Positions 1,830 to 32,454 of a stretch of DNA of 33,177 bases are shown in pieces (the stretch's first letter is position 1; each line of letters starts with the position of its first letter). The DNA lies in contig JAABRE010000053.1 of NCBI GenBank assembly GCA_011391125.1, forward strand, positions 1 through 33,177. The letters run 5' to 3'. The position numbers and the translations under genes are program-made. The notes under the pieces are model-generated. The model was not told where the DNA came from. It made no database searches and saw only the letters and a list, made by a program, of their open reading frames with translations. This stretch comes from Synechococcales cyanobacterium S06 (lineage in GTDB: Bacteria; Cyanobacteriota; Cyanobacteriia; Cyanobacteriales; JAABRE01).

Positions 1830-1872
1830 TTGTAGATTGAGAGAATAGGCAAAATGCCTGTTCCACCCGACT

Positions 1873-1890
1873 AAGAAAACCCCCTTACCA
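1873..1890 (+). promoter_or_regulatory. Degenerate copy of the shared palindromic operator upstream of the NYN gene
   Basis: The left arm AAGAAAA and a CCCCC centre are intact, but the right arm (CTTACCA) has drifted from TTTTCTT. It lies 46 nt before the NYN start. This is the weakest member of the set, and its -10 region (TAACCT at 1900) is poor. Confidence 0.45.
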
Positions 1891-1935
1891 TCATTAAGAT
1901 AACCTAGAAATTGTCAAGGAAGGGAGTAGGTAAAG

Positions 1936-2661
1936 ATGACAACTAAAACTTTAATTGGTGCAATTTCTGGTTTATTAATCGTCGGTTTAGGAATTGCCAA
2001 AGGAGATATTGCTAATTTTATTGGTGGTGGTTTATTAGTTTCAAATAGTGTCGCAATTACCCGTAAAAAAGATACTAAAATTTCAGATTCTGCTCCCGAA
2101 AATACGGTTAATTCTCAACCTGTTTCTCGCGTTTATATTGATGGTGCAAATACTTTCGGTGCTACCCGTATTTTAGATTTTGAAATTGACTTTAAAGCCT
2201 TAGCTAATCACATTTCTGACGGTAAAGACAATGTAATTTTTAACTTTTACTTCGCTGTTTCTGACACTCCCACTTCTAAAGAAATTGGCTTTATTAATTA
2301 TCTCGAAAAAACTGGTTATAACGTGGTAAAATCCCTTAAAAAACAATTACCCGACGGCAGTTTTAAAAACAAAGGTGATGACGTTCAAATTGCCACTGAT
2401 ATTACCACTGATGCTAATGAAAATGACCATATTATCTTAGTCTCTGGTGATGGAGATTTTACCTATTCCCTAGAAAAAGTTAAAGCCAAAGGTTGTCAAG
2501 TTACTGTTATTTCCACTGCTAATTGTCTTAGTTCTCAATTAAAAAACGTTGCTGATCATGTCATTAATTTAGCCGAAATTAAAACCGAAATTAAACGCCA
2601 AGATACCGTTAAATCCTATCATAAACCTACCTTAAAACGTGATTTAACTAAAGTTTCTTAA
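1936..2661 (+). CDS. Membrane-anchored NYN-domain (LabA/DUF88-like) putative RNase
   Basis: 241 residues. Residues 4-45 are hydrophobic and glycine-rich (LIGAISGLLIVGLGIAKG, then FIGGGLLVSNSVAI), suggesting one hairpin or two short membrane segments. After a polar linker, the NYN (PIN-like) domain spans about 65-215. Its acidic motifs are RVYIDGAN (first Asp), NKGDDVQIATDI and LVSGDGDFTYSLE, the usual metal-binding set of NYN nucleases, so an active RNase is plausible. A degenerate copy of the shared palindrome lies upstream, and the RBS is AAGGAAGGGAG. A truncated copy of its 5' end, with a stop at codon 4, sits at 15198. Substrate is unknown. A NYN nuclease in a CRISPR-accessory neighbourhood suggests a defence role, but that is inference. 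Confidence 0.8.
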   Translation: MTTKTLIGAISGLLIVGLGIAKGDIANFIGGGLLVSNSVAITRKKDTKISDSAPENTVNSQPVSRVYIDGANTFGATRILDFEIDFKALANHISDGKDNVIFNFYFAVSDTPTSKEIGFINYLEKTGYNVVKSLKKQLPDGSFKNKGDDVQIATDITTDANENDHIILVSGDGDFTYSLEKVKAKGCQVTVISTANCLSSQLKNVADHVINLAEIKTEIKRQDTVKSYHKPTLKRDLTKVS

Positions 2662-2730: not shown

Positions 2731-2750
2731 CTAAGAAGCTTAAAATTAAT

Positions 2751-2768
2751 AGGAAATACCCTTTTCTT
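2751..2768 (+). promoter_or_regulatory. Shared palindromic operator upstream of the 405-aa membrane protein
   Basis: AGGAAATACCCTTTTCTT matches the consensus AAGAAAACCCCTTTTCTT with a few changes in the left arm. A -10-like TTTAAC starts 8 nt after it (2777), and the gene begins 47 nt downstream of the operator. Confidence 0.65.
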
Positions 2769-2815
2769 AGAGGATGTTTAACTAAATTATGAAATAAAAA
2801 AGGGGTAAATTAATT

Positions 2816-4033
2816 ATGACACAATATAATCAAAATCAATTATCTCAAGCTGATCTCCTTGTAAAATTCATCGAACAAGACCCCAGTTGCAGCGAAGTTT
2901 TTGAAGTTACTAAACAAGGTCAAACTTTAACCCCTAAAACTCAATCTTTATTAGAAAAAACAGCCTCTCTTTTTATTGCTTCTCCCAACGATTTTTATGG
3001 TAATATTTATGTTACAAACGAACTAAAAAAACACGCAAATATTACGGCTCATACTAATACTGTTGCTAATCTAGTCGATTTTATTTCTAATGCTCCTTTT
3101 TATTATTTTAGTTTCCAATTTTTAGGTAATATTCCCGCCGTTATTTTAGGTTTATTCTTAGATACTGGTGTGCTTTATTTCTCTAATATAACAGCAGCTA
3201 ATACCGCTAATCGTAACAAAAAAAATCGCGCTTGGGCGAATATTGGTATGCTAGGAATGATTAGTATTAGTATGGTTAAATCCCTTGTTTCTGGTATTGG
3301 TGTGGAGTTACTCAATAATCCCACGGGAATCCAACAAGAAGCGGCTAATTATTTAATTAATGAACAAATCGAGAAAATCAAATATCTTAAAACCTTAAAT
3401 TCCCCTCAATATGACAATGCAAAACAAGAATGTGAAAAAGGTGAAAATATTTTAAGAAATATGACTAAAGATGATCGTCAATATCATTCTAAATATGCAG
3501 AATATTATGGTACATGGAGTGAACGTAAGACAAATTGGGATAATGCACCTTTAAGTAAACTTCCTGTTTGTCATCGTGTGCAACGTTTAGAAAAAGCTCA
3601 TTATAGTAATTATGAAAATGCGAAAAATGACTTAAATAAAAAGTTAACTCGTCGCACTGAAATTGGCAATGATTTAACCTTTTTAAAACAAGAATTTCCC
3701 GAAGTTTATAACTTTAATTTTGATAAAAATGGTAATTTAAAATCCCCCGTTACTCAAGTTCAAATGGCCACCCTTAGCTTTTTTGGTAAATTAAGTCGAG
3801 GTGAATTTGCTAATTTAGGTTTTGCTTTATTCTGGTTCTCTCTTTCTCTTATTAGTAGTGCAGTTGCGGTTTTAATTACTATTACCTATTCCTGTCGTCA
3901 AGATGTTTTAAAATCTCGGGATGAAGATTTTGCCCGTCAACGTGATATTCAATTAGAAGAAATTTACCTCGAATTACTCACACAAAACCAAGAATTATTA
4001 ACTCAAATTAACCAAGAAAACCACCTTTCCTAA
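2816..4033 (+). CDS. Unrecognised three-TM membrane protein with a long helical middle
   Basis: 405 residues, no family recognised. Residues 1-90 are polar. Hydrophobic segments lie at about 94-123 (FQFLGNIPAVILGLFLDTGV), 141-165 (GMLGMISISMVKSLVSGIG) and 331-358 (FALFWFSLSLISSAVAVLIT). Between the second and third segments is a ~160-residue charged, largely helical region rich in Lys, Glu, Asn and Tyr that may be a coiled coil. The C-terminus (360-405) is again helical and acidic, with a Gln/Asn/Leu-rich tail. Start is supported by AAAGGGG upstream of the ATG. It has its own copy of the shared operator. In type III CRISPR islands, membrane proteins of unknown family are common cyclic-oligoadenylate-linked effectors. 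That possibility is inferred from context only. Confidence 0.7.
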   Translation: MTQYNQNQLSQADLLVKFIEQDPSCSEVFEVTKQGQTLTPKTQSLLEKTASLFIASPNDFYGNIYVTNELKKHANITAHTNTVANLVDFISNAPFYYFSFQFLGNIPAVILGLFLDTGVLYFSNITAANTANRNKKNRAWANIGMLGMISISMVKSLVSGIGVELLNNPTGIQQEAANYLINEQIEKIKYLKTLNSPQYDNAKQECEKGENILRNMTKDDRQYHSKYAEYYGTWSERKTNWDNAPLSKLPVCHRVQRLEKAHYSNYENAKNDLNKKLTRRTEIGNDLTFLKQEFPEVYNFNFDKNGNLKSPVTQVQMATLSFFGKLSRGEFANLGFALFWFSLSLISSAVAVLITITYSCRQDVLKSRDEDFARQRDIQLEEIYLELLTQNQELLTQINQENHLS

Positions 4034-4136
4034 GATAGTTTATCTTAGTAATTGTCACCCAAAAAGTCTAAAAAACCTGGTTTCTTTAAAAGTTATAATC
4101 TCATAAATAGTTATAGGTTAAGAAACCAGGTTTTTT
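4031..4136. terminator. Two hairpins after the membrane-protein gene
   Basis: A small perfect hairpin TAAGATA-gtt-TATCTTA (4031-4047) overlaps the end of the gene. It is followed by a long inverted repeat, AAAAAACCTGGTTTCTTTAA (4070-4089) with TTAAGAAACCAGGTTTTTT (4118-4136). The second ends in a T-run and looks like a bidirectional terminator. Its shape is also that of a short dispersed palindromic element. Confidence 0.65.
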
Positions 4137-4173: not shown

Positions 4174-4920
4174 ATGAAGACAAGTTTTCTCGATCGCACT
4201 TTCACAGAAACTCACCAAAAAGGAAAAATTAGCGAGGAAAATTTTGCTGACAAAACGTTATTTAAAGAAAGATTAATCAGAAATTTTATTACTTATGTCA
4301 AACAAACAGGAGATTGTAATTATTTAAGCTTATTAAATGCTAACAAATTAGAGCTAAATAAAGATACAAAAATAGAAAGTTTAAAAGAACAAAAAATCTT
4401 AGAAAAAATTAACACATTATATGATGATAATAAATTAGAGGGAAACAAAGAAACAGAAATAGAAACTTCCCAAACACAAAAAATATTAATAAAAATTGAT
4501 ACTAATATTTCCGAAAGTTGTCTCAATTTAAAAGACATTATTAAACAGTTTGCTGAAAGTTTACACCCAACAAATCAAAGTGAAAACATCAGAAACTTAC
4601 TCGAAGATATTACTAACCCTACCCAAACACCCTACTTAATAACTGCTTTAAAAGAAGAACATAAAAAATTAGCTCGTTTTTTAGATTTAATAATAGCTAT
4701 TGCTAAGAAAAAAGGAGATCAATCCCTTAAACAATTTATCCGTGATTTAACCTATTATCGTGAATATATCAGTTATCATGCACAACCTACCAAAATACAA
4801 CATGATTTAAGCCAAATTTCCGATTCATTTTTATATCTAAGAAGATTAAACCAATACTTAGATTTACTTCCCGAAACTGTAACTAATTTAATTGATATCA
4901 TGGCAAATACTTCAGAATAA
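4174..4920 (+). CDS. Unrecognised helical protein, 248 aa
   Basis: No family recognised. Lys/Glu/Asn/Ile-rich and predicted almost wholly alpha-helical, with no membrane segment or signal peptide. Residues about 45-105 contain two imperfect copies of a unit (NKLELNKDTKIESLKEQKIL, then a second starting NKLEGNKETEIETSQT about 25-30 residues later), a local internal duplication. The C-terminal 140 residues contain an ordered-looking helical stretch including LARFLDLIIAIAKKKG and DLTYYREYISYHA. No copy of the shared operator is seen upstream; a hairpin at 4070-4136 separates it from the previous gene. The RBS is weak (AGAGAG). The internal duplication supports a real, evolving gene, but function is unknown. 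Confidence 0.6.
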   Translation: MKTSFLDRTFTETHQKGKISEENFADKTLFKERLIRNFITYVKQTGDCNYLSLLNANKLELNKDTKIESLKEQKILEKINTLYDDNKLEGNKETEIETSQTQKILIKIDTNISESCLNLKDIIKQFAESLHPTNQSENIRNLLEDITNPTQTPYLITALKEEHKKLARFLDLIIAIAKKKGDQSLKQFIRDLTYYREYISYHAQPTKIQHDLSQISDSFLYLRRLNQYLDLLPETVTNLIDIMANTSE

Positions 4921-6004: not shown

Positions 6005-6011
6005 TTAAATT

Positions 6012-6029
6012 AAGAAATACCCCTTTCTT
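6012..6029 (+). promoter_or_regulatory. Shared palindromic operator upstream of the Csx3-fusion gene
   Basis: AAGAAATACCCCTTTCTT, with AAGAAA/TTTCTT arms. A -10-like TTTAAT starts 9 nt later (6039), followed by an overlapping TATAAT at 6044. The gene starts 50 nt beyond the operator. Confidence 0.7.
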
Positions 6030-6079
6030 ACCTCGTGTTTTAATATAATTGTTGGTTAACAAAATAGGAGCAAATCAAA

Positions 6080-7405
6080 ATGAATAATACACAAGCAAAA
6101 TTTAAAATTGTATATCATACCAATCCTGAAAAATCCGAATTTCTCTTAGAAGTTGCACCCATTTCCGATGAATTTACTGTAATTGACTTAATCAAAGATG
6201 CAAAAAATCAATTAAAGGAATTAATTAACAAAAATATTTTTAGTAATTTTCAAATCTTAAAAATAAATGGTCGTTTACCCTTACCAATTTGTTATCTTTT
6301 TGCCCATGAATTTCAGCATTTCTTTAGTATTATCGCCGTTTATTACCCCCAAAATAACCTTTATGTCGTGACAAATAGCACTAATTCTGATTACCAAATC
6401 GGTGACAGAATTGACCCGATAACTAATGAAAAAATACCCGAAACTTCCCCCCTCGTGAGGGGGGGTAGGGGGGTCACTCCTGTTAAATTATCAGAAAAGG
6501 AAGCTGTTACTGTTAATATTTCAGGAGATACTTTACATATTGATTGTAAATTAGGAATCAAAGATGGAGATTTAGTCGCCAAAGAAGCCGCCGAAAAAAT
6601 AGATAACTTGATAGAAACTCAACAAATAAAAGGAGGTAATTTAATTAAAGTTAACGGAAAAGCCAGCGTTTTAGTAAGTTTTATTATCGCTCATAAATTA
6701 GCTCATTTATACGCCAATGTCCTCGTTTTTGACCCGAAAATTGATGGTTATGTAACCACTATACGTCATGGAGGTAATTTGGCGATCGGTGATTTTATTC
6801 CCGAAAATTCATCTTTTAATAATCAGAAAAAAATTGTTATTGGTGGTAATATTAACCGAGGAAAAACCTTAATAAAAGACGGTTTAAGAATAGTATTATC
6901 TCAATATTTAGATAACAAAAATTACTATCTTATCTCAGGTTGTCCCGATGGTGACGGTGCATGGTATAGTCAAGCTTGTCAAAATAATCCCAAATTGGCT
7001 AAACAATTAAAAGATAAATATAAAGCAAGTTTTACCCTCGAATTTGCACAAAATAAAGCTCAAGAAATTAGGACAATTAATAACCCTTTATTAATCTTTG
7101 ATGTGGGAGGAAAAACTATTAATAATCAATTAACTCCTGAAAATAAAATTATCATGTCAGAGGCCACCCATGCTATTATTGTAGGAGGAAACGAAGCGGA
7201 AATTGCCTTATGGCGTAATTGTTGTCAAGAATTAAACCTAAAAATTAGCGCCGAAATTACCACGAAAATTGAATCTGGTAATGATACTTTTGAGATTAAA
7301 AATGACATTTTGACTACGACAATTCATCAATTAGAAAGGGGTAATAATTTAGTAGAATCCATCGGCATCAATAAATTAGCTGAATATTTATCCCCTGATT
7401 TGTAA
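6080..7405 (+). CDS. csx3: Csx3-Csx3-P-loop NTPase fusion (CRISPR ring-nuclease family)
   Basis: 441 residues. Two tandem Csx3-like domains, about 8-112 and 141-240, are recognisable by the paired motifs KINGRLPLPI...AHEFQH (first) and KVNGKASVLV...AHKLAHLYANVLVFDPK (second). The C-terminal domain (about 250-440) is the P-loop domain known from cyanobacterial Csx3 fusions: VIGGNINRGKTL gives a Walker A (GxxxxGKT), followed by CPDGDGAWY and LLIFDVGGK. Csx3/Crn3 proteins degrade cyclic tetra-adenylate made by type III CRISPR complexes. The second domain keeps the H-x8-D (AHL...FDP) and a later His; the first has YYP instead of FDP and lacks the later His, so it may only bind or support assembly. 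The inter-domain linker (119-134, PETSPLVRGGRG) is encoded by an inserted G-rich repeat at about 6446-6480. Preceded by the shared operator and a GGAG RBS. Confidence 0.85.
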   Translation: MNNTQAKFKIVYHTNPEKSEFLLEVAPISDEFTVIDLIKDAKNQLKELINKNIFSNFQILKINGRLPLPICYLFAHEFQHFFSIIAVYYPQNNLYVVTNSTNSDYQIGDRIDPITNEKIPETSPLVRGGRGVTPVKLSEKEAVTVNISGDTLHIDCKLGIKDGDLVAKEAAEKIDNLIETQQIKGGNLIKVNGKASVLVSFIIAHKLAHLYANVLVFDPKIDGYVTTIRHGGNLAIGDFIPENSSFNNQKKIVIGGNINRGKTLIKDGLRIVLSQYLDNKNYYLISGCPDGDGAWYSQACQNNPKLAKQLKDKYKASFTLEFAQNKAQEIRTINNPLLIFDVGGKTINNQLTPENKIIMSEATHAIIVGGNEAEIALWRNCCQELNLKISAEITTKIESGNDTFEIKNDILTTTIHQLERGNNLVESIGINKLAEYLSPDL

Positions 7406-7462: not shown

Positions 7463-7484
7463 CTACTAATTTGAAAATCGCTAT

Positions 7485-7502
7485 AAGAAAACCCCTTTTC
7501 TA
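7485..7502 (+). promoter_or_regulatory. Shared palindromic operator upstream of two small genes
   Basis: AAGAAAACCCCTTTTCTA, consensus except the last base. A -10-like TTTAAT starts 9 nt after it (7512-7517). That promoter overlaps the ATG at 7516, which argues that translation starts at the next ATG (7549). Confidence 0.75.
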
Positions 7503-7548
7503 AGGATAGGTTTTAATGAAATTGTTGAGAGGAAAGGAAGTAAAAAAT

Positions 7549-9198: not shown

Positions 9199-10347
9199 AT
9201 GCCTAAAGTAATCGTCTCAACCTGTGGAACAAGTTTATTAACTAATACTCCTGACAGTAATTTAAGACAGTTATTAATGAAAACTGCTAATTATCAAAGC
9301 AAGGATTTTTTGACAGAAGAAAAGAGACAAATTGACAGTCATATTAATAATATTCAAGCTAAATTAACTGAGATGACTTTAACAGAAGTTAAGAAAATTA
9401 GCGCTGAATTAAACGGAATTTTAACCTATTATCAAGATCAAATTCCCACCTTAAAAGGTACTCCAGATACTCATTTTATCCTCGTCAGTGACACTTACCA
9501 AGGAGTTAAAGTTGGCGAAATTATTGCTAATTGGTTGACTAGCAATCAATTATTAGCAGAAGTCATAAAAATTGCGGATTTAGCTACTAATAATCGGGAT
9601 AATTTTCGCTTGGCCATGTCAGAATTGATTAACTGGTGTAATGATACTTTAACGGGTTTTCGTGATGCAGGTTATGAAATCATTTTTAACCTTACTGGTG
9701 GTTTTAAAAGTGTTCAAGGTTTTTTGCAAAGTTTCGGAATGTTTTATGCAGATAAATGTATCTATATTTTCCAATTTAGCTCAGAATTATTAACAATTCC
9801 CCGCCTACCCATTAAGTTAGATATAGAGGAAATTATTGGCAAAAATTTAACTGTTTTCCGTAAATTAGATGACGGTTTTACTGTTAATAAAAATGAATGT
9901 AATAATATCCCGGAAACGCTGTTATTTTACCTTGAAAATGAAGATACCGTTACCCTTTCAGAATGGGGTAAATTAATCTGGTTACAGACGAAAAAACACT
10001 ATTATCAACAGGAATTATTACCACCTTTAAGCGATAAATTAGTGTATTCTGAGGAGTTTAAAAAGAATATTAAAGATTTACAAAATCGCCCAGATCGCTT
10101 AGAATTAGTTAACCTTTGCTGTGATAAATTAAGTCGTTTCCTAGAGTCCCAAACTACCTATAATCCTAAATCTTTAGACTTTAAACCTATTCTTAAAAGT
10201 CCTTTTCCTGATTCTACCCACGAATGTGACGCTTGGGGCGATCAAGATGCCCAAAGATTATTTGGTCATTGGTTAGGAAATGGACAATATATAATCGGAC
10301 ACGCGAAGCGTGCGCGTTGCGAGCGCCTCGCCAAAGGATTACATTAA
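9199..10347 (+). CDS. CARF-domain CRISPR accessory protein (APE2256-like) with RelE-like C-terminus
   Basis: 382 residues. The N-terminal part (1-210) carries the CARF pattern of the APE2256/Csx1-like group: VIVSTCGTSLLTN at the start, FILVSDTYQGVKVGEIIANW (93-112) and FNLTGGFKSVQGFLQSFG (163-180). Such domains bind cyclic oligoadenylate. Residues about 240-270 look like a small helical linker (LSEWGKLIWLQTK). The C-terminal part (281-382: LVYSEEFKKNIKDL, LDFKPIL, STHECDAWGDQDAQRLFGHW) resembles RelE/HigB-type mRNA interferases, the layout of Cami1-type CARF-RelE effectors. The last 15 residues are altered by an inserted repeat (10299-10337). RBS AAAGGAGC. No shared operator is visible; MITE B lies just upstream. 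CARF is well supported, RelE moderately. Confidence 0.8.
   Translation: MPKVIVSTCGTSLLTNTPDSNLRQLLMKTANYQSKDFLTEEKRQIDSHINNIQAKLTEMTLTEVKKISAELNGILTYYQDQIPTLKGTPDTHFILVSDTYQGVKVGEIIANWLTSNQLLAEVIKIADLATNNRDNFRLAMSELINWCNDTLTGFRDAGYEIIFNLTGGFKSVQGFLQSFGMFYADKCIYIFQFSSELLTIPRLPIKLDIEEIIGKNLTVFRKLDDGFTVNKNECNNIPETLLFYLENEDTVTLSEWGKLIWLQTKKHYYQQELLPPLSDKLVYSEEFKKNIKDLQNRPDRLELVNLCCDKLSRFLESQTTYNPKSLDFKPILKSPFPDSTHECDAWGDQDAQRLFGHWLGNGQYIIGHAKRARCERLAKGLH
10299..10337 (+). repeat. Short GC-rich palindromic repeat inside the CARF gene end
   Basis: CACGCGAAGCGTG, then GCGAGCGCCTCGCCAAAGG. It is much more GC-rich than its surroundings and resembles the short dispersed palindromes common in cyanobacterial genomes. 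It is read in frame as GHAKRARCERLAKG just before the terminal LH, so it has rewritten the protein C-terminus. Confidence 0.6.
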
Positions 10348-11103: not shown

Positions 11104-11409
11104 AAAGCCTGATTAACCTAATTTTGTGCCTCGGGGCTGAAACTAAGAAGATTACCTGAGAACTATTTTGAGCTTAAATCATTACTAGATATAGGATTTA
11201 GCCGTTTCTGGTAGCTTTTAAATGAGAATCTACGCACAAAACCAAATCTCTGCAATCCCTATTCTTTCGTTAACGTCCGTCGATTCCTTACAAAATATAG
11301 CTTTGAGCCTTGTCAATTTAACAATTTTCAGCTATCATTAACTTAGTTTTTCTTGGTGCGTCGATTTGAGGCTTGAAACCCTCTCTGGCTATGCTACCTG
11401 TGACGAACT
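11104..11409 (+). other. Probable CRISPR leader region
   Basis: About 300 bp with no credible gene between the RT remnant and the first repeat. The repeats end in GGAAAC, so transcription is expected left to right and this side should be the leader. It contains GTCGATTTGAGGCTTGAAAC (11358-11377) close to the array and an AT-rich stretch at 11316-11353. No promoter is assigned with confidence. Confidence 0.45.
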
Positions 11410-11822
11410 CTCTCTACTCGCTAGAAAACCTATTTGAATGGAAACCCAACTCTTCAGAAAGAATTAAAGATGAAAATACTTTCTCTCTACTCGCTAGAGA
11501 ACCTATTTGAATGGAAACGCCTGTGGTAGGAGACACAAGCTCTCTTACCGTAAAGTTGCTCTCTACTCGCTAGAGAACCTATTTGAATGGAAACGATATT
11601 ATCTTGAAGTGAGATATTCACCATTCCAGTTAAGGCTCTCTACTCGCTAGAGAACCTATTTGAATGGAAACACTCTGCTTGGCACAGGTCTTCCTTTTCT
11701 CTTTGCAAAGAACTCTCTACTCGCTAGAGAACCTATTTGAATGGAAACATTCATACCACATTGTCCAGATATAGTCTCTGCTCCAACTCTCCACTCGCTG
11801 GAGAACCTATTTGAATGGAAAC
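11410..11822 (+). CRISPR. CRISPR array, 6 repeats of 36 bp, 5 spacers (III-B-like repeat)
   Basis: Repeats at 11410, 11483, 11559, 11636, 11713 and 11787, each 36 bp, beginning CTCTCTACTCGCTAGAGAAC and ending CTATTTGAATGGAAAC. Spacers are 37, 40, 41, 41 and 38 bp and all differ. The first repeat has one change (TAGAAA for TAGAGA). The last has two compensating changes that keep its stem (TCTCCA...TGGAGA instead of TCTCTA...TAGAGA). The repeat resembles the Synechocystis CRISPR3 (III-B) type as I recall it, including the ACTCG loop and TGGAAAC end. No effector or adaptation cas genes are in the window, so crRNA processing would have to come from elsewhere. Confidence 0.97.
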
Positions 11823-11862
11823 AATAAAACTGTTTGAAGATATAAGCATTTTACTGGCTCGC

Positions 11863-12910: not shown

Positions 12911-12992
12911 AGTTTAATTTTTGTTAAATTATCTCAAAAATATATCATTTTTTTGCTAAGATGATAAAGGATTTAAACCAACAATATTCTCT

Positions 12993-13010
12993 AGGAAAAC
13001 CCCTTTTCTT
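12993..13010. promoter_or_regulatory. Shared palindromic operator between macro and coiled-coil genes
   Basis: AGGAAAACCCCTTTTCTT, one change from consensus. On the plus strand TAATAAT starts 8 nt later (13019). On the minus strand a TATTGT lies a few nt beyond the other arm, so divergent control is possible. Confidence 0.75.
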
Positions 13011-13056
13011 GTCTTGGGTAATAATCTATTTTTGTAACTGTAAGAGGACTTAAATT

Positions 13057-13296
13057 ATGGATTTCGCTGCACAATTGAAACAATATCAAGAATATCTTTA
13101 CAGTGAGTTAAGTTCTTTGCAATCTAATGACAAACATAATCGTACTTTAATGGAACAAAAAAGCGAGCAGTTATCAAAATTGTTGGATTTAATTGATAGT
13201 TTAGAAGAAGAAGCCACTAAATATGAATTAATGAAAGATACCCACCTGGAACTAGATCGCATTGAAACTGTGGAATATCCTAATTCTTTTAATTAA
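13057..13296 (+). CDS. Small acidic coiled-coil protein, 79 aa
   Basis: MDFAAQLKQYQEYLYSELSS followed by a continuous charged amphipathic helix (EQKSEQLSKLLDLIDSLEEE) and a short polar tail ending EYPNSFN. No family recognised, no membrane segment. RBS AAGAGGAC. It is the first gene after the shared operator at 12993 and is followed by a second operator copy and the 344-aa protein. Its size and acidity suggest a partner, regulator or inhibitor of a larger protein, but nothing in the sequence specifies which. Confidence 0.7.
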   Translation: MDFAAQLKQYQEYLYSELSSLQSNDKHNRTLMEQKSEQLSKLLDLIDSLEEEATKYELMKDTHLELDRIETVEYPNSFN

Positions 13297-13336
13297 TTTT
13301 TGACACGGAAATTAAGTTTCTTGGGGGAGGTAATAC

Positions 13337-13354
13337 AGGAAACCTCCTTTTCTT
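13337..13354 (+). promoter_or_regulatory. Shared palindromic operator upstream of the 344-aa protein
   Basis: AGGAAACCTCCTTTTCTT, with a TATGAT -10 hexamer starting 8 nt after it (13363-13368). The gene begins 45 nt downstream of the operator. Confidence 0.72.
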
Positions 13355-13399
13355 GCTTAATTTATGATGAGAATTGTTCAGTTTATTCGGGGGTAAAAA

Positions 13400-14434
13400 A
13401 TGTGGTATTTAAGTAAAATTACTTTTACGGGTTCAGAATCTGCCATATCTGAATTGGTTAAACATTATAATAAGTCACCTTACGGAACGAATATCAGCCG
13501 AGAAAAAAATAGTTTTTTTAACACTCTTTTTTATCGACCATCCAGTTTATTTTCTCATCCTGATGCACCCAATGACTCCACCTTACGCAGTAAGCTCAAC
13601 GAAGATTTATTAGTATATAATATTGAAAACTTGGGTTGTTCATTGGTGGGATTAGGATACCTTGAAAAAAGAGACACGGAGTTAGCTACCATTGGTTTAT
13701 TTACTCGTTATAATACTCCTTTGATTGGTTTAGCTAGAATTGCTAATATTCCCGAATATAGTGATGTAACTATTGAGGTTTCCTATCACCGTGTACCCAC
13801 TTCTTCTCAGTCAGAAATTAATAATTATCCCTCTGGTTTTTATCAACTTAAAAATGGTAGATGTTACTCAGAACGTCAGGAAGATCAAGGACAGAAAATA
13901 ACCAAAGAAGAAACCCTAGAATATTTATTAACCAATCATCAAAAATTTGGTGATAACAACAGAAATTATCTATTTTTCGACAAGAGTAAATATGTCAGAG
14001 GAAGTTCGATTTGGCGAAAAGATTTAGATTTTGAAGGAACAATTTTCGAGAAAACCCATCAACAAATCCAAGCTTTACCCACTTGTTTAAAGATATTACA
14101 TTCTTCTGAATGGTTATTTATCATTAATTATTGTGTTTTAAGTAGAGAAGATCGTGAACCTTTAAGTTTTTATCATGGAGAAATAGTTTATCAAAGATTC
14201 GATAATCAAGGTGATGAAGATTATAATTTGTTTTTAAATAGACAATTTACTCTTGATCACGTCTTTAAATCCTTAAAAATTGAACCAGATTTTGTTGCCA
14301 AAAATTCAACTCAAATAATTAAAAAAATGGAGTCTCTGGCCACTAAATTAACTCCTCTAGTTGTTAATCTTCTAAAGCTAAGGGAACTTGAAGAGGAATA
14401 TGCTAATCTTCAATCTAAATTAAACTCAAAATAA
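13400..14434 (+). CDS. Unrecognised 344-aa protein under the shared operator
   Basis: No family recognised. Mixed alpha/beta composition, rich in aromatic residues, without signal peptide or membrane segment. Starts MWYLSKITFTGSESAISELV. Residues about 75-130 are beta-rich (LGCSLVGLGYLEKRDTELAT, IEVSYHRVP), the middle is polar, and the C-terminal 40 residues form a helix or coiled coil (LTPLVVNLLKLRELEEEYAN). A short Cys-His pattern is not evident. Start is fixed by GGGGGTAAAAA before the ATG. It follows the small coiled-coil gene by 100 bp with its own operator copy. An effector or structural role in the regulon is possible but not shown. Confidence 0.7.
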   Translation: MWYLSKITFTGSESAISELVKHYNKSPYGTNISREKNSFFNTLFYRPSSLFSHPDAPNDSTLRSKLNEDLLVYNIENLGCSLVGLGYLEKRDTELATIGLFTRYNTPLIGLARIANIPEYSDVTIEVSYHRVPTSSQSEINNYPSGFYQLKNGRCYSERQEDQGQKITKEETLEYLLTNHQKFGDNNRNYLFFDKSKYVRGSSIWRKDLDFEGTIFEKTHQQIQALPTCLKILHSSEWLFIINYCVLSREDREPLSFYHGEIVYQRFDNQGDEDYNLFLNRQFTLDHVFKSLKIEPDFVAKNSTQIIKKMESLATKLTPLVVNLLKLRELEEEYANLQSKLNSK

Positions 14435-14439
14435 ACCTT

Positions 14440-14457
14440 AAGAAAATCCCTTTTCTT
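14440..14457 (+). promoter_or_regulatory. Shared palindromic operator upstream of the phosphatase gene
   Basis: AAGAAAATCCCTTTTCTT, perfect outer arms. A TAGGAT -10-like hexamer starts 9 nt after it (14467-14472). MITE copy C begins at 14478, so the predicted transcript would start at about the MITE edge and carry it as a leader. Confidence 0.7.
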
Positions 14458-14477
14458 GAATGTATATAGGATAATTA

Positions 14478-14613: not shown

Positions 14614-15114
14614 ATGTTAGATTTAGATATTATTATTTGTGGTGTCCCCGAAGTTAATGATTATATTGATGATGCAGACCTGGTTATTTCGATTATGAAT
14701 CCGGGTTATACAATTTTTGCACCTCAGTCTATTTTATCTAAAGAAAATGATAATCGTCACAGTGTTTTAAGGTTAGAATTTGATGATGTCTGGTCAGAAA
14801 ACTATCAATTAGGACAAGAACTGGTAACTAAGGATATTATTTATGATGTTATTGATTTTGTTTCTACTCATTATGAAAATGCCGATAATCCCTTAACTTT
14901 ATTGATCCATTGTCACGAAGGAGTTAGTCGTTCTACTGCTATGGCCATTACCGTTTATACTGCTATATTTAAAGATTATCAGGAGGCGATCGAGAGAGTT
15001 GCAGGCGATCGCTCCCAAGCAGTTCCCAACTTTGAAATAGTACGTTTAAGCGATGAAATCTTCGGTTTAAAAGATAAATTAATTAACGCAGTTTGGGAAG
15101 AATTTTATCATTAA
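14614..15114 (+). CDS. Tyrosine/dual-specificity phosphatase-like protein
   Basis: 166 residues, small cysteine-phosphatase fold. The P-loop HCHEGVSRST (about 98-107) fits HC-x5-R with Cys and Arg present, and the preceding segment (VIDFVSTHYENADNPLTLLI) is the usual helix-strand before it. The C-terminal part (AVPNFEIVRLSDEIFGL) matches a group of bacterial phosphatase-like proteins with a PNxxIVxLaDxxLG ending. The general acid is not obvious; Asp residues at FDDVW (about 56) are candidates. RBS AGGAGC. Preceded by the shared operator and MITE C. A 5'-truncated duplicate lies at 1540. Downstream is a dead NYN gene start. Confidence 0.85.
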   Translation: MLDLDIIICGVPEVNDYIDDADLVISIMNPGYTIFAPQSILSKENDNRHSVLRLEFDDVWSENYQLGQELVTKDIIYDVIDFVSTHYENADNPLTLLIHCHEGVSRSTAMAITVYTAIFKDYQEAIERVAGDRSQAVPNFEIVRLSDEIFGLKDKLINAVWEEFYH

Positions 15115-15252
15115 TTGTAGATTGACAGAACAGGCAAAATGCCTGTTTTTCTATACCAAGAAAACCGAGAAATTGTCAAGAAAGGAAGTAACTAAAGATG
15201 AAAACTTGAATTTTAATTGGTGCAATTTACGGTTTATTAATTGCAGTTTATT
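14825..15252 (+). repeat. Right copy of the ~430-bp direct repeat
   Basis: Equivalent to 1540-1989. It includes the phosphatase 3' half, the intergenic AGGCAAAATGCCTGTT hairpin and the first ~55 bp of the NYN gene. The right copy has lost part of the intergenic operator: only AAGAAAACC remains at about 15162. Confidence 0.85.
15198..15252 (+). pseudogene. Remnant of the NYN gene start
   Basis: ATGAAAACTTGAATTTTAAT at 15198 aligns with the start of the NYN gene at 1936, including the RBS context. Codon 4 is TGA, and similarity fades after about 15252. The rest of the gene is absent. To 15347 nothing further is recognised. Confidence 0.75.
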
Positions 15253-15347: not shown

Positions 15348-16820
15348 CTATTTATAGATTTCCCAAGCTTTTTGAGAATCTGCCCGCATACGTTGTCTTA
15401 AATCATGGGGACATAATATTTCCACATTATGACCCCAACTTCTTAAACGCATAATGACATCAGCTTCCACATTGTAACCACCTTCTTTACCGTGGCGATA
15501 ATTCATTATATAATAAGCATCATCGGGGTTATTTTCTATTACTTTGCTAATTAATTGTTTATCATTTTCTGTTAATTTTGTCTGAGTTTTTTCTAAACTC
15601 TGATTTAATTTTTGCCAAAATTCTTGCAAATTATTAATATTTAACTGTTTAAAAGTATCATGTCGTTTTGTATTTTTGATGTAATATTTATGAAAATCTT
15701 GGGGAAAACGTAACAACATAGTTTTAAGTTCCCGATCTAAATCTACCCCTAAACCTTCCTGTAATTTATCATAAATATCAGCTGAATTTAACTCCTGTAA
15801 TTCTTCTTTTTTCTTCAGTAATTTTAAATGAATATCAGGATTATCTTCATCCCATTCTTGGGAAAAAATATATTTATTTTTATCCAGTTCCAGAAAATGA
15901 TCTAAACGATAATTATAGTAACCTAAATAAGAAAGATTACTCGGTTTAGAACCATAACCTGTCAGATAAATTCCTCGCTGATTATAGAATAAACAGATAG
16001 GGAAAATAATTAAATCTACAGTTTCTTGCTGACTAGAACTAGCATATTTAATACTAATTAAAGGTATATCTTCCTGTGACCAAACTTTTCTTAATTGATA
16101 CACTATATCTTCAATTTTATCAAGATCATTTCGAGTAACAATGTGTTGAAACTTGATAAAAAAACGTTGTTGTTCTCTAAGACTTTCTGAAGTAGTTTTT
16201 AATAACTCATCGAAAATAATATTATTAGTTTGGTCAGAAAAATTACTATTTTCTAAAGTATTAGTAAGATGAGAAACCGAGATTAATTTCGTGGTAATTG
16301 TTTCTAAATGTAACTTAGTATATTGTTTATTTTTAGATAATAAAAAACTCCTTGTTGCTAAACAAATAAAGTCATTATTAAAAGTTCTAATTCCATTTTT
16401 ACCATTTTTTTCCTTTAAACATTTAAAAGGAATTAAACTAAGTATTTCCTCTTTTTGTTTCTCATTTAAAGTCAGACCAAAACGAGCTTCAAATTTTATT
16501 AACCAATCATGGAGATTAACTTTAAAAGTATCTAACCAAGTAAAAATTGAATATTTTATATAATCGGAATTAAAAACTTCTCTCCAATCTTTTTGAGTAA
16601 AGGTTTCTTGAGGAAAATAAAAATCAGAATTTTCGTCATAAAAACTAATTAATTCCACATACAATCTAAAGGCCTTTTTAATATTATCAAAAAAACTTTT
16701 AAGAGCAGGTTCTAACTTAGGATGATCTGGTTTAGGATATCTTAAATTTTTCGGTGTATCAATTGACCATAAATTAGCAGGAAATGGTGGATATTCTTGA
16801 TAAAAAGGTAATTCTGCCAT
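15348..16820 (-). CDS. TIGR03985-type CRISPR-associated WYL-domain regulator
   Basis: 490 residues. The N-terminal ~150 residues (AELPFYQEYPPFPANLWSID) are typical of the cyanobacterial CRISPR-associated TIGR03985 group. Residues about 250-345 form a WYL-like core (VDLIIFPICLFYNQRGIYLT, YNYRLDHFLEL). The end, YNVEADVIMRLRSWGHNVEI then CPHDLRQRM, is the conserved C-terminal extension of WYL proteins. WYL proteins often act as ligand-sensing transcription regulators of CRISPR and phage-defence genes; in Synechocystis one represses crRNA accumulation. No canonical winged-helix motif is obvious to me. It is divergent from the 58-aa gene at 16975, and the spacer holds the shared palindrome, so autoregulation is likely. 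It is the best candidate regulator of all genes with that palindrome. Confidence 0.85.
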   Translation of the reverse strand: MAELPFYQEYPPFPANLWSIDTPKNLRYPKPDHPKLEPALKSFFDNIKKAFRLYVELISFYDENSDFYFPQETFTQKDWREVFNSDYIKYSIFTWLDTFKVNLHDWLIKFEARFGLTLNEKQKEEILSLIPFKCLKEKNGKNGIRTFNNDFICLATRSFLLSKNKQYTKLHLETITTKLISVSHLTNTLENSNFSDQTNNIIFDELLKTTSESLREQQRFFIKFQHIVTRNDLDKIEDIVYQLRKVWSQEDIPLISIKYASSSQQETVDLIIFPICLFYNQRGIYLTGYGSKPSNLSYLGYYNYRLDHFLELDKNKYIFSQEWDEDNPDIHLKLLKKKEELQELNSADIYDKLQEGLGVDLDRELKTMLLRFPQDFHKYYIKNTKRHDTFKQLNINNLQEFWQKLNQSLEKTQTKLTENDKQLISKVIENNPDDAYYIMNYRHGKEGGYNVEADVIMRLRSWGHNVEILCPHDLRQRMRADSQKAWEIYK

Positions 16821-16909
16821 AATTTTAAGTCCTCAAAAGAATAAATACTAATCTAACATAATTACAATCAAAATAGGTTAACTATTACATAATTGTTACA
16901 ATTTTTATG

Positions 16910-16927
16910 GGGAAAAACCCTTTTCCT
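16910..16927. promoter_or_regulatory. Shared palindromic operator between the WYL regulator and a small gene
   Basis: GGGAAAAACCCTTTTCCT. Both arms carry matching changes (GGAAAA with TTTTCC), so symmetry is kept although the sequence differs from consensus. TTTAAT follows 9 nt later (16937) for the rightward gene. Confidence 0.72.
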
Positions 16928-16974
16928 AAACCATGTTTTAATCATAATTATTAACAAAACAAGAGGTAAAAATT

Positions 16975-17151
16975 ATGACAAAACAAGAAGCTTACGTTAA
17001 AGGTGAACGTGATGGCGCACACAACAATGGTTATCATAACCCGGCCAATGATCCCGCCAATCAAATAGTTTGGTCTGGTGCAAAAGCTAAAGAAATAAGT
17101 GAAGCTTACGCCGAAGGTTTTCGTAATGGTCAAAAAAATAAACCTAAATAA
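16975..17151 (+). CDS. Small polar protein, 58 aa, divergent from the WYL regulator
   Basis: ATG at 16975 with RBS AAGAGGTAAAAATT, stop at 17149-17151. The sequence starts MTKQEAYVKGERDGAHNNGY and ends AYAEGFRNGQKNKPK. It contains two similar AY-x2-G-x3-G units (EAYVKGERDG near the start, EAYAEGFRNG near the end) around an Asn/Pro-rich middle (HNPANDPANQ). This repeated design suggests a compact two-helix binding protein. No membrane segment and no known family. The reverse-strand frame over the same bases is longer in places but lacks an RBS. Its operator, RBS and internal repeat support a real gene. Confidence 0.72.
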   Translation: MTKQEAYVKGERDGAHNNGYHNPANDPANQIVWSGAKAKEISEAYAEGFRNGQKNKPK

Positions 17152-18094: not shown

Positions 18095-18124
18095 AATCCC
18101 ATCATCCCCAAGGAAGATGGGAGT

Positions 18125-18142
18125 AAGAAAACCCCTTTTCTT
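18125..18142 (+). promoter_or_regulatory. Shared palindromic operator, perfect consensus copy
   Basis: AAGAAAACCCCTTTTCTT: seven-base arms AAGAAAA and TTTTCTT are exact reverse complements around CCCC. TATGAT starts 9 nt later (18152-18157), and the NADAR-like gene starts at 18189. This is the type copy of the set. Confidence 0.8.
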
Positions 18143-18188
18143 AATTGCATTTATGATAACTAAAGTTATTAAAAAAGGATAAAAATAT

Positions 18189-18737
18189 ATGTCAATTATT
18201 GTTCAAAGTCATCGTCGTCGTTTAGATAATATTCAAAAAGACTATCCCGAAACCATTATTATTGACGTAACATCTAAAGGTGAAACTCCTTGGGTTAAGT
18301 TCAGTCCCTTTTATCCCCATGGTAACATTCCTGTGCCCTTTTATCCCCGTTGGCAAAGTGAATCTGTGGAAGGAATTTGGCAAGGTTTAAAGGTGTTTGA
18401 AACTGCGGGAATTGACCATTCAAAAATGCAGATTCAGGACATGAAAAATATTAAACGAACTGTTAGGAAATACGGTAAAACTAAAGGTCATTCAGCAGGA
18501 GCAACTAAGTTATTAAGTTACCTAGATGCGAGAAAGTTAATTTACCTTCCTAGTTATCTTTGGGTATTAGAAAATCCCCTCGCTGATTTGGTGGAAAAAT
18601 TGCGAAAAATGTCCCAATCTCAAACTGTTATTCTCTTAGATTATGAAACTAATGGAGACATTAAAAATTGTAAAAAACCCCTTTCCCATGCTTATTTAAT
18701 TAAGTATTATGTCGAGGGAACTTATCCTAGTTTTTAA
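18189..18737 (+). CDS. NADAR-like conserved protein (resembles DUF6939)
   Basis: 182 residues starting MSIIVQSHRRRLDNIQKDYP. Key stretches are IIIDVTSKGETPWVKFSPFY, GNIPVPF, SVEGIWQGLKVFE, MKNIKRTVRKYGKTKGH and ARKLIYLPSYLWVLEN. The order FSPFYP...SVEGIWQGLKVF...KRTVRK is similar to NADAR proteins (FSNF...TVEHYFQAQKF), and I recall the family as DUF6939. NADAR enzymes act on ADP-ribosylated guanine or on riboflavin-type N-glycosides, so an ADP-ribose-related role would fit the macro and Nudix-like genes nearby. The link is by motif resemblance, not proof. It has the perfect copy of the shared operator and RBS AAAGGAT. It is the last gene before the tRNA at the island boundary. Confidence 0.6.
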   Translation: MSIIVQSHRRRLDNIQKDYPETIIIDVTSKGETPWVKFSPFYPHGNIPVPFYPRWQSESVEGIWQGLKVFETAGIDHSKMQIQDMKNIKRTVRKYGKTKGHSAGATKLLSYLDARKLIYLPSYLWVLENPLADLVEKLRKMSQSQTVILLDYETNGDIKNCKKPLSHAYLIKYYVEGTYPSF

Positions 18738-30071: not shown

Positions 30072-30223
30072 TTTGTAGGGTGGGAAATGGCGGGATTAAT
30101 TAACAACCTAAACCTTAAGATTTATTCGCCATTGCCCACCTTTAATCATGGTGGTGGGGCCAAACGGATTATTCATCAAAGGTTTTTTGACAGAATTTTT
30201 TGCCGTTTTACCCACCCTACAAA
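30072..30223. repeat. ~150-bp dispersed repeat, copy 1
   Basis: Ends TTTGTAGGGTGGGAAATGGC and CCCACCCTACAAA in inverted form. The inside contains TTAAGATTTATTCGCCATTG and a GCCGTTTTACCCACCC end block, shared with 30566, 31399 and 32272. A non-autonomous mobile element is likely. Confidence 0.8.
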
Positions 30224-30263
30224 AGCTGGAGAATTCAATAAATTTTAAATATATTAAATAATT

Positions 30264-30533
30264 TTATTTTTTCTTTTTTCCAAAAGGAGATATACCTATA
30301 CCTATTGCTAGACCTATAGCTGTACAACCAAATATTAAAGTAAAAGGAATTGCTCCTGTTGAAGTGCTACCCAAAATACACATTATCATCGATAAAAAAA
30401 AGCATCCCGCAACAGTTGGAAATAAAACTCCTATTATGAAACCTATACCAATACAACTTAATACTATTACTGTCATAGATTTATCAACAAAATATAGATT
30501 AACTAGATTAATCATACTATAATTAAAAAACAT
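30264..30533 (-). CDS. Small glycine-rich membrane protein, 89 aa
   Basis: MFFNYSMINLVNLYFVDKSM then three hydrophobic Gly-rich segments (VLSCIGIGFIIGVLFPTVAG, MCILGSTSTG..., FGCTAIGLAIGIGISPFG) and a KKKK end. No family recognised. Start is uncertain, with an internal Met at codon 20 possible. It sits between two repeat copies. Confidence 0.5.
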   Translation of the reverse strand: MFFNYSMINLVNLYFVDKSMTVIVLSCIGIGFIIGVLFPTVAGCFFLSMIMCILGSTSTGAIPFTLIFGCTAIGLAIGIGISPFGKKKK

Positions 30534-30565
30534 TTCTACAATCTTAAATAATAGGCTGTAGTTTC

Positions 30566-30712
30566 GTAGGGTGGGTAAGGTTGCGATTAATTGACAACAG
30601 AAGCCTTAAGATTTATTCGCCATTGCCCACCTTTAATCATGGTGGTGGGCAGAACGGATTATTCATCAAGGGTTTTTTCAGTAATTTATTGCCGTTTTAC
30701 CCTAAAAGCCTA
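30566..30712. repeat. ~150-bp dispersed repeat, copy 2
   Basis: Starts GTAGGGTGGGTAAGGTTGCG; right end degenerate (TTTTACCCTAAAAGCC). Shares the AAGATTTATTCGCCATTGCC block with the other three copies. Confidence 0.75.
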
Positions 30713-31393: not shown

Positions 31394-31398
31394 GTTTC

Positions 31399-31539
31399 GT
31401 AGGGTGGGAAATGGCGCAATTAATTGACAACAAAAGCCTTAAGATTTATTCGCCATTGCCCACCTTTAATCCTGCCGTGCATAAGGGATTATTAATTAAA
31501 GGTTTTTTCAGTAATTTATTGCCGTTTTACCCACCCTAC
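31399..31539. repeat. ~150-bp dispersed repeat, copy 3
   Basis: GTAGGGTGGGAAATGGCGCA at the left, TTTTACCCACCCTAC at the right, with the shared AAGATTTATTCGCCATTGCC block. It starts 6 bp after the PIN gene. Confidence 0.8.
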
Positions 31540-31570
31540 AAAGGCTTACAAAAGCTATATTTAAAAAATT

Positions 31571-31918
31571 ATGATTGATTTATATAAACGTTTAAATGCA
31601 AAACCAGAACAATTAACAGAGATTTGTCAACAATGGCAAATTGTGGAATTGGCTTTATTTGGTTCAGTTTTGAGGGAAGATTTTAACCAAAATAGTGATG
31701 TCGATTTATTAGTTTCTTTTGCTCCTCAAGCTAAAATTACTTTTTTTGATCTTGATAATATTGAAAATCAATTTAGTTTATTATTTAAACGTCCTGTAGA
31801 TATTGTCACGAAAAAAGCCATGGAAAAAAGTCATAATTGGATTCGTCAACAAAATATTTTAGGTAATGCAAAAGTAATTTATGAACAGAAATCAAGAAGC
31901 AATTTTGGATTTAATTAG
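31571..31918 (+). CDS. mntA: MNT-type nucleotidyltransferase antitoxin (MntA-like)
   Basis: 115 residues. LALFGSVLREDFNQNSDVDL (about 28-47) gives GS-x10-DxD, and RPVDIVTKKAME the later Asp. Same class as the protein at 8285 but a different sequence. It overlaps the HEPN gene by 38 bp. Confidence 0.88.
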   Translation: MIDLYKRLNAKPEQLTEICQQWQIVELALFGSVLREDFNQNSDVDLLVSFAPQAKITFFDLDNIENQFSLLFKRPVDIVTKKAMEKSHNWIRQQNILGNAKVIYEQKSRSNFGFN

Positions 31919-32225
31919 AGCTGCTAATTTAATTATTGAATTTTGTCAAAATTTAGATTATCATAGTTTTTCTCAAGATTTAAAAACCCAGTCCTCTGTT
32001 TTATATCAAATAGTTATTATTGGTGAGGCCATTAATTCACTTTCCCCTGATTTTATCGCATCTTATCCGAGCATTCCTTTTTCATCTATTCGAGGAATGC
32101 GCAATCGTGTTGTTCATGAATATAAAGAAGTGGATATAGACATTTTGTGGCAGGTAATTCAAACCAGTATTCCCGAATTATTAACTCAAATTGAAAAGGT
32201 TAATAATGAGCAGGAAAATTGGTAA
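31881..32225 (+). CDS. hepT: HEPN toxin (HepT-like), intact active site
   Basis: 114 residues. QIVIIGEAINSLSPDFIAS and SSIRGMRNRVVHEYKEVDID, with the R-x4-H motif (RNRVVH) and the following Tyr in HEY, the site of AMPylation in known MNT/HEPN pairs. This is a good internal comparison for the MITE-disrupted HEPN at 8583. Confidence 0.9.
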   Translation: MNRNQEAILDLIRAANLIIEFCQNLDYHSFSQDLKTQSSVLYQIVIIGEAINSLSPDFIASYPSIPFSSIRGMRNRVVHEYKEVDIDILWQVIQTSIPELLTQIEKVNNEQENW

Positions 32226-32271
32226 TTTTTTGGTAAAATTTTTCACCTAATGGGCGATCGATTAACTTTAT

Positions 32272-32378
32272 GTAGGGTGGGAAATGGCGCGATTAATTAA
32301 CAACAGAAGCCTTAAGATTTATTCGCCATTGCCCACCTTTAATCATACCGTGCAGAAGAGATTATTAATCAAGTCTTT
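32272..32378. repeat. ~150-bp dispersed repeat, copy 4 (3'-truncated)
   Basis: GTAGGGTGGGAAATGGCGCG and the AAGATTTATTCGCCATTGCC block are present, but the right-end TTTACCCACCCTAC is missing. Confidence 0.7.
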
Positions 32379-32454
32379 TGGGGAAGAAACACACTTCCTG
32401 ATATTTCTATTTATGTTATTATACAATTAAAAATTAAATTTTATTAGACAAATT

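Follow-up and report, generated by a model that had tools for sequence, protein, structure and literature searches.

To our knowledge, the connection between WYL proteins and type III CRISPR loci is a decade old, and for most of these proteins neither operators nor targets are known. The occurrence of WYL regulators beside CRISPR genes is already known, as is TIGR03985 as a named family; in the literature searched, we found no operator, binding site or regulon for any TIGR03985 protein. Here we propose, for this family, an operator together with its promoter geometry and a list of target genes, all of which can be tested in Synechocystis 6803. The protein that we started from is encoded in a stretch of 33,177 nucleotides from the Synechococcales cyanobacterium S06 (GenBank assembly GCA_011391125.1, contig JAABRE010000053.1), the whole of which was analysed and is called the window below.

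The closest described system is that of DriD in Caulobacter, which is switched on by single-stranded DNA in its WYL domain, and whose sites overlap the -35 at a constant distance from the -10, the driD promoter being bidirectional (PMC12340889). DriD is the best structural match to the window regulator and shares with TIGR03985 proteins the wHTH-WYL-WCX layout (in the window regulator as modelled, with a putative winged helix), a 20-bp pseudopalindrome over the (here predicted) -35 region and a bidirectional promoter. However, DriD recognizes ATACGAC-N7-GTCGTAT and governs a DNA-damage regulon, whereas the TIGR03985 pattern is RGAAR-N6-YTTCY and lies before type III CRISPR genes; the two proteins are 14% identical over the aligned part, and the response to single-stranded DNA is that of DriD. 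Mycobacterial PafBC (PMC11804915) and SiwR (PMC10693628) are two other WYL proteins that activate from a position upstream of the -10, and resemble TIGR03985 in that the -35 is replaced or a palindrome lies upstream of the -10. They differ in that PafBC is a heterodimer that uses a -26 motif and sigma adaptation, and in that both regulons belong to DNA damage or stress. CapW (CBASS) and BrxR (BREX) are, like TIGR03985 proteins, WYL regulators of defence loci with palindromes in their own divergent regions, but the CapW operator lies over the -10 (PMC9122588) and the BrxR operator downstream of it (PMC9122601). Furthermore, these two belong to different wHTH-WYL families and match the window regulator less well in structure.

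A further precedent had been seen, in an earlier sequence-only reading of the window, in Synechocystis Sll7009, a WYL protein said to lower crRNA levels. Sll7009 is indeed a negative regulator of crRNA (PMC10212523) and, like the window regulator, a WYL protein beside CRISPR genes. However, it belongs to a different WYL family: SGL_RS00670, which lies beside the type I-D cas genes and was equated with Sll7009 by position, has no TIGR03985 match and gave E = 1.0 in BLASTP against the window protein. The family member in Synechocystis 6803 is Sll7078 (344 bits; 31% identity to the window regulator), which we took to be SGL_RS00995 of pSYSA because that gene and the csx3-AAA gene slr7080 (PMC9676260) are divergently oriented. 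Around the CRISPR3 region there are several operator-like sites, the best-fitting one at pSYSA 94658, before an AlkB-like gene and with a predicted -10 at 8 nt; a -10 box is also predicted at 96282. In contrast to the situation in the window, these sites are more degenerate and Sll7078 lies beside complete type III systems. A passage of PMC6789036 lists Sll7078 among 'transcriptional repressors' of crRNA.

The TIGR03985 protein of the window

The candidate palindrome binder is a protein of 490 aa encoded at 15348..16820 on the minus strand, by the sole TIGR03985 gene of the 4.8-Mb genome. The NCBIfam profile of the family, for which the curated threshold is 60 bits, scores 204.7 bits over its full length (1-249) on residues 218-490, and the earlier description of a CRISPR-associated WYL-type TIGR03985 protein is therefore correct. 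Pfam WYL (255-311) and WCX (452-485) match weakly, and PADLOC labels the protein HTH-WYL, under CRISPR 'associated_signaling', with 223-263 bits. The family's CRISPR-associated context is present as well: the neighbours are type III accessory genes, namely those for an NYN nuclease (1936), C3a124 (2816), Csx3-AAA (6080) and CARF7-RelE (9199), with a short CRISPR array of six repeats at 11408-11830. The CARF7-RelE (Csm6-like) effector gene (9199..10347, plus strand) is 46% identical to Synechocystis SGL_RS00920, equated with Sll7062 by map position, and no operator was found in front of it in the window.

An AlphaFold model of the regulator based on 80 sequences (pLDDT 85.9) shows a helical, winged N-terminal part followed by a WYL barrel and WCX domain. 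Its best match in the PDB is DriD (Z 12.8, rmsd 3.7, 195 residues), followed by CapW and BrxR (Z 7-9) and PafBC (8.7). The match to DriD covers the C-terminal domain, where the Sm-like WYL fold and the WCX domain agree with the weak Pfam matches, so that the C-terminus as modelled is clearly of the DriD-like WYL-WCX type. In the WYL pocket, Y285, L286 and R305 are invariant among 80 relatives, and C276 and R282 are at least 90% conserved. The N-terminal domain, expected from the earlier reading to bind DNA, is modelled with confidence when taken alone (pLDDT 86.2) and may be a winged-helix domain, its matches to winged-helix regulators being modest (Z 5-6.7). A sequence search of the PDB with the family profile gave no meaningful match, and a search for TIGR03985 relatives in viral contigs found none.

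Palindromes and their downstream genes

The window contains nine good palindromes, all on the plus strand and in the same orientation, with the consensus TARGAAAA-YCCC-TTTTCTTR, and one decayed copy. With up to three mismatches, the consensus has six matches in the window (0.02 expected) and eight in the whole genome (4.8 Mb), so that six of the eight lie inside the window; the looser pattern RGAARN6YTTCY was observed 11 times in the window against 1.35 expected. At eight of the ten sites, the palindrome ends 44-49 nt before an ATG.

The decayed copy (1872..1891; PWM score 17.4 bits) lies 44 nt from the ATG of the NYN-domain (nuclease) gene (1936-2661, plus strand; NYN 89.5 bits). The candidate operator at 2750..2769 is 46 nt from the ATG of C3a124 (2816-4033, plus strand; 344.8 bits), a PADLOC type III accessory family with no assigned function, and that at 6011..6030 is 49 nt from the ATG of a Csx3-AAA fusion gene (6080-7405, plus strand; PADLOC Csx3-AAA 281.7 bits) with two weak Csx3-like stretches. 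Three more precede open reading frames on the plus strand: 4013..4032, with a TATCTT -10 at 8 nt, before 4174-4920; 7484..7503, before a small frame starting at 7516 or 7549; and 13336..13355, with a TATGAT -10 at 7 nt, before 13400-14434. The site at 12992..13011, which has a similar promoter stretch in a second genome, G172 (L069:2706), lies upstream of a 79-aa ORF (13057-13296, plus strand), and that at 14439..14458 upstream of a dual-specificity-phosphatase-like gene (14614-15114, plus strand). Finally, a perfect candidate operator, TAAGAAAACCCCTTTTCTTA, is found at 18124..18143, followed by TATGAT at 18152-18157 and, after 45 nt, by the ATG of a DUF6939 gene (18189-18737, plus strand); both this gene (80% identity) and its operator are conserved in G172.

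The remaining good palindrome, GGGGAAAAACCCTTTTCCTA (16909..16928), lies in the spacer (16821-16974) between the regulator gene and a divergent ORF of 58 aa (16975..17151, plus strand) that starts MTKQEAYVKGERDGAHNNGYHNP and has no family match. The palindrome that had been noted in the divergent spacer of the regulator is thus real, and belongs to a set well above chance. The further claim, of a site in the regulator's own promoter, holds only in that the spacer is common to both genes. A -10-like TTTAAT stands 8 nt downstream of the palindrome on the plus strand and faces the 58-aa ORF, the ATG of which (16975) is 46 nt away, whereas towards the TIGR03985 gene no TANNNT was found at 7-8 nt; direct autoregulation is therefore not supported in the window. 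The 58-aa ORF is apparently the predicted target of this site, and it is possible that it encodes a small regulatory or anti-defence protein. In G172, the site at the orthologous regulator gene (L184) has a TATCAT 8 nt away that faces the regulator, and there direct autoregulation is supported.

Two observations on these promoters may be added. The 79-aa ORF behind the 12992 operator, which begins 45 nt after it, is an unlisted one whose product is charged and probably a coiled coil. Several operators, both in the window (4013-4060) and in G172 (L069 near 1160 and 7413; L185 near 3100 and 3868), are followed by a conserved stretch, TTTATCTTAGTRATTGTY, that continues beyond the -10 and into the predicted start of the transcript, and which may represent an additional element of the promoter or of the RNA.

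A footprint across the family

For comparison, the order was sampled evenly, which yielded about 100 TIGR03985 loci, and 80 named loci were taken from genome contigs. Upstream of these genes, the window palindrome generalizes to RGAAR-N6-YTTCY. In the first set (101 genes), the N6 spacing accounts for 51 sites, which lie upstream of 50 genes, against seven at N3 and 0-3 at the other spacings; dinucleotide shuffles gave 1.66 on average and never more than 5. Among 153 non-redundant proteins, the N6 architecture is present upstream of 71 genes. The result was replicated on the 52 further proteins alone (21 genes at N6; 0-2 at other spacings) and persisted after clustering at 50% identity (12 of 23 clusters, against 0-1 for any other spacing). 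A relaxed pattern, RGAA-N8-TTCY, adds 24 genes; about 38% of TIGR03985 genes have no palindrome even so, among them most of the highest-scoring clade (24 of its 30). The excess at N3 in the spacer test (nine genes) was set aside, since most of it comes from an internal reading of the N6 palindromes (AGAAG-N3-CTTCC within GGAAGAAG). At 30 of the 153 loci, a Csx3-AAA gene is immediately divergent from the TIGR03985 gene, with a strict operator between the two in 14.

The palindrome also follows the family across genomes. A TIGR03985 gene is present in 155 of the 391 genomes sampled, and TTGGAARN6YTTCCAA occurs in 59 of these 155 but in 44 of the 236 negative genomes (83 and 51 sites; Fisher p = 3e-5), whereas the same pattern read backwards, as a control, gives 38 and 48 sites (p = 1). 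The co-occurrence of palindrome and regulator predicted from the window alone is accordingly seen, with the footprint upstream of genes across the family. Palindromes in genomes without a TIGR03985 protein, which would have counted against this link, were inspected: in the site-richest negative genomes, G085 and G102, all sites but one are copies of a coding stretch that we take, from its translation, to be psbA, and the same is true of one of the two sites in G134. None of the sites in these three genomes has a spaced -10. A genome-wide search for the exact pattern with a -10 was rejected as confounded by one conserved coding stretch (GGAAACTCGYCTTTCCATGATTGGCTAYGAT). Clusters of the window type are confined to G000 and G172 among the genomes searched; the G172 regulator is 63% identical to that of the window, and its sites stand before orthologous genes, such as that for DUF6939.

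Promoter geometry

A predicted -10 (TANNNT) lies exactly 7 nt past the 20-bp palindrome at 46 of 72 sites in the direction of the TIGR03985 gene and at 31 of 72 in the direction of the divergent gene, against a background of 2-3% at other offsets; 24 sites have it on both sides. After removal of promoters at least 70% alike, the counts are 35/58 towards the regulator and 22/58 away from it. In the window, G172 and Synechocystis, a distance of 8 nt is favoured. Operators located elsewhere than at the TIGR03985 gene again peak at these two distances (7 nt, 31 sites; 8 nt, 36 sites; other offsets, 3-15), and the genes that they precede include those for Cas10b, Cmr4, CARF-RelE, CARF-DUF2103, Csx3, Csx3-AAA and a Cas8a-like protein. 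Besides the regulator itself, the commonest targets are Csx3 and Csx3-AAA genes (for example at L235, L114, L139, L161 and L171). No TTGACA-like box (up to two mismatches) at a spacing of 15-19 bp was found in the promoters examined. A fixed -10 spacing without a -35 implies that the operator spans about -39 to -20, with its centre near -30, and replaces the -35. Thus, the palindrome covers the predicted -35 region at a constant distance from the predicted -10, as DriD sites do, and, unlike a CapW or BrxR operator, it stops 7-8 nt short of the predicted -10 on the upstream side.

Proposed mode of action

That the TIGR03985 protein binds the palindromes of the cluster is, from the sequence comparisons, very likely, because the palindrome stands at a fixed distance from the -10 before about half of its relatives' genes and before many type III CRISPR genes. 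The earlier proposal that this protein is the natural binder draws further support from the co-occurrence and from the structural model. We envisage a homodimeric winged-helix/WYL/WCX transcription factor. The dimer would bind RGAAR-N6-YTTCY (in the window, the longer consensus given above) about 30 bp upstream of the start, at the -35 position, and, as DriD does, would recruit or stabilize RNA polymerase at promoters in which a -10 is present and a -35 is missing. One operator may serve two divergent promoters, and the switch would be a ligand in the WYL pocket, probably a single-stranded nucleic acid or a nucleotide. In the window, the predicted regulon would be the local type III accessory set (the Csx3-AAA, C3a124, NYN, DUF6939 and phosphatase genes); elsewhere, it would also take in Cas10, Cmr4 and CARF-RelE. 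Taken whole, this account, in which a type III CRISPR accessory regulon is activated in DriD-like fashion under the control of a ligand, seems to us probable. Activation is its less certain part: given binding, we hold it to be somewhat favoured by analogy, and repression to be rather unlikely. As the closest structure is DriD, with its -35-overlapping and -10-spaced site, DriD-like activation is the likeliest mode, and the agreement in geometry with the WYL activators favours ligand-gated activation over repression. The repression of the Sll7009 type suggested earlier is therefore not what the promoters point to. Should the protein activate transcription, the type III CRISPR of cyanobacteria would be an inducible response with the same promoter logic as the DNA-damage response of DriD, which bears on what the WYL regulators of defence loci sense.

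The nature of the ligand can be narrowed by the gene content. Searches of the window's genome found neither a RAMP (PF03787) nor a Cmr2 (TIGR02577) gene, and the one candidate Cas10, a weak match to PF22335 (Cas10-palm), is a GGDEF/EAL protein; in G172, RAMPs lie beside the regulator. If the assembly is complete in this respect, cyclic oligoadenylate made by Cas10 cannot signal to the window member. By analogy with DriD and PafBC, the TIGR03985 protein more likely responds to a nucleic acid. The most specific version of our proposal, in which these proteins are DriD-type activators that make -35-less promoters on both sides of one palindrome for the type III CRISPR machinery of cyanobacteria (Cas10, Cmr, CARF effectors and the ring nuclease), are switched by nucleic acid instead of cyclic oligoadenylate and, in the window's genome, govern an orphan accessory regulon, is offered tentatively, as a possible one.

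A repressor that covers the -35 region and is released by a ligand during infection, in the manner of CapW or BrxR, is the alternative that survives best, although we consider it unlikely. Such a protein would leave a similar footprint, CapW and BrxR are themselves WYL repressors of defence loci, and repressors typically regulate themselves through divergent promoters; moreover, Sll7078 is cited as a crRNA repressor in the passage of PMC6789036 mentioned above. However, the spacing between palindrome and -10 is exact to the nucleotide in many genera and in both directions, without a -35, and occlusion needs none of this. The operators of the known WYL repressors lie on or after the -10, and the closest structure is that of an activator.

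It is improbable that another factor, be it some other regulator or an alternative sigma factor, reads the palindrome and that TIGR03985 is merely one of its targets. An association in gene position does not prove binding, the strict motif is absent from more than half of TIGR03985 genes (and the relaxed one from the fraction given above), and the similar -10 at every site could be explained by a sigma factor. Against this, the motif tracks the presence of TIGR03985 genome-wide, it is found at 24 of 78 loci that have no csx3 homologue nearby, and no other DNA-binding regulator was recognized in the window with Pfam and NCBIfam. A dyad common to two divergent promoters is also more readily explained by a dimeric regulator than by a -35 box for sigma.

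A MerR-like mechanism, in which the left arm TTGGAA would be a weak -35 (two mismatches to TTGACA, at 20-21 bp in 13/35 and 11/35 promoters) and the protein would untwist the over-long spacer, is very improbable, since TTGGAA is simply the conserved palindrome arm, the spacer exceeds the 19-20 bp of MerR promoters, and the fold is WYL rather than MerR.

Other features of the window

The product of ORF 4174 was considered as a DNA-binding regulator and rejected, its match to TraM being weak and below threshold. A 300-nt duplication with 98% identity links 1540-1839 to 14825-15124, which is the 3' part of the phosphatase-like gene. The less similar sequence beyond both duplicates (1896-1979 and 15158-15241) indicates that a decayed start of the NYN gene and a decayed operator follow 15114. 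Towards the right end of the window, an intergenic repeat of about 108 nt is present in four diverged copies, at 31396-32379 and 30072-30673, which flank small toxin-antitoxin-like genes (PIN and a nucleotidyltransferase/HEPN pair).
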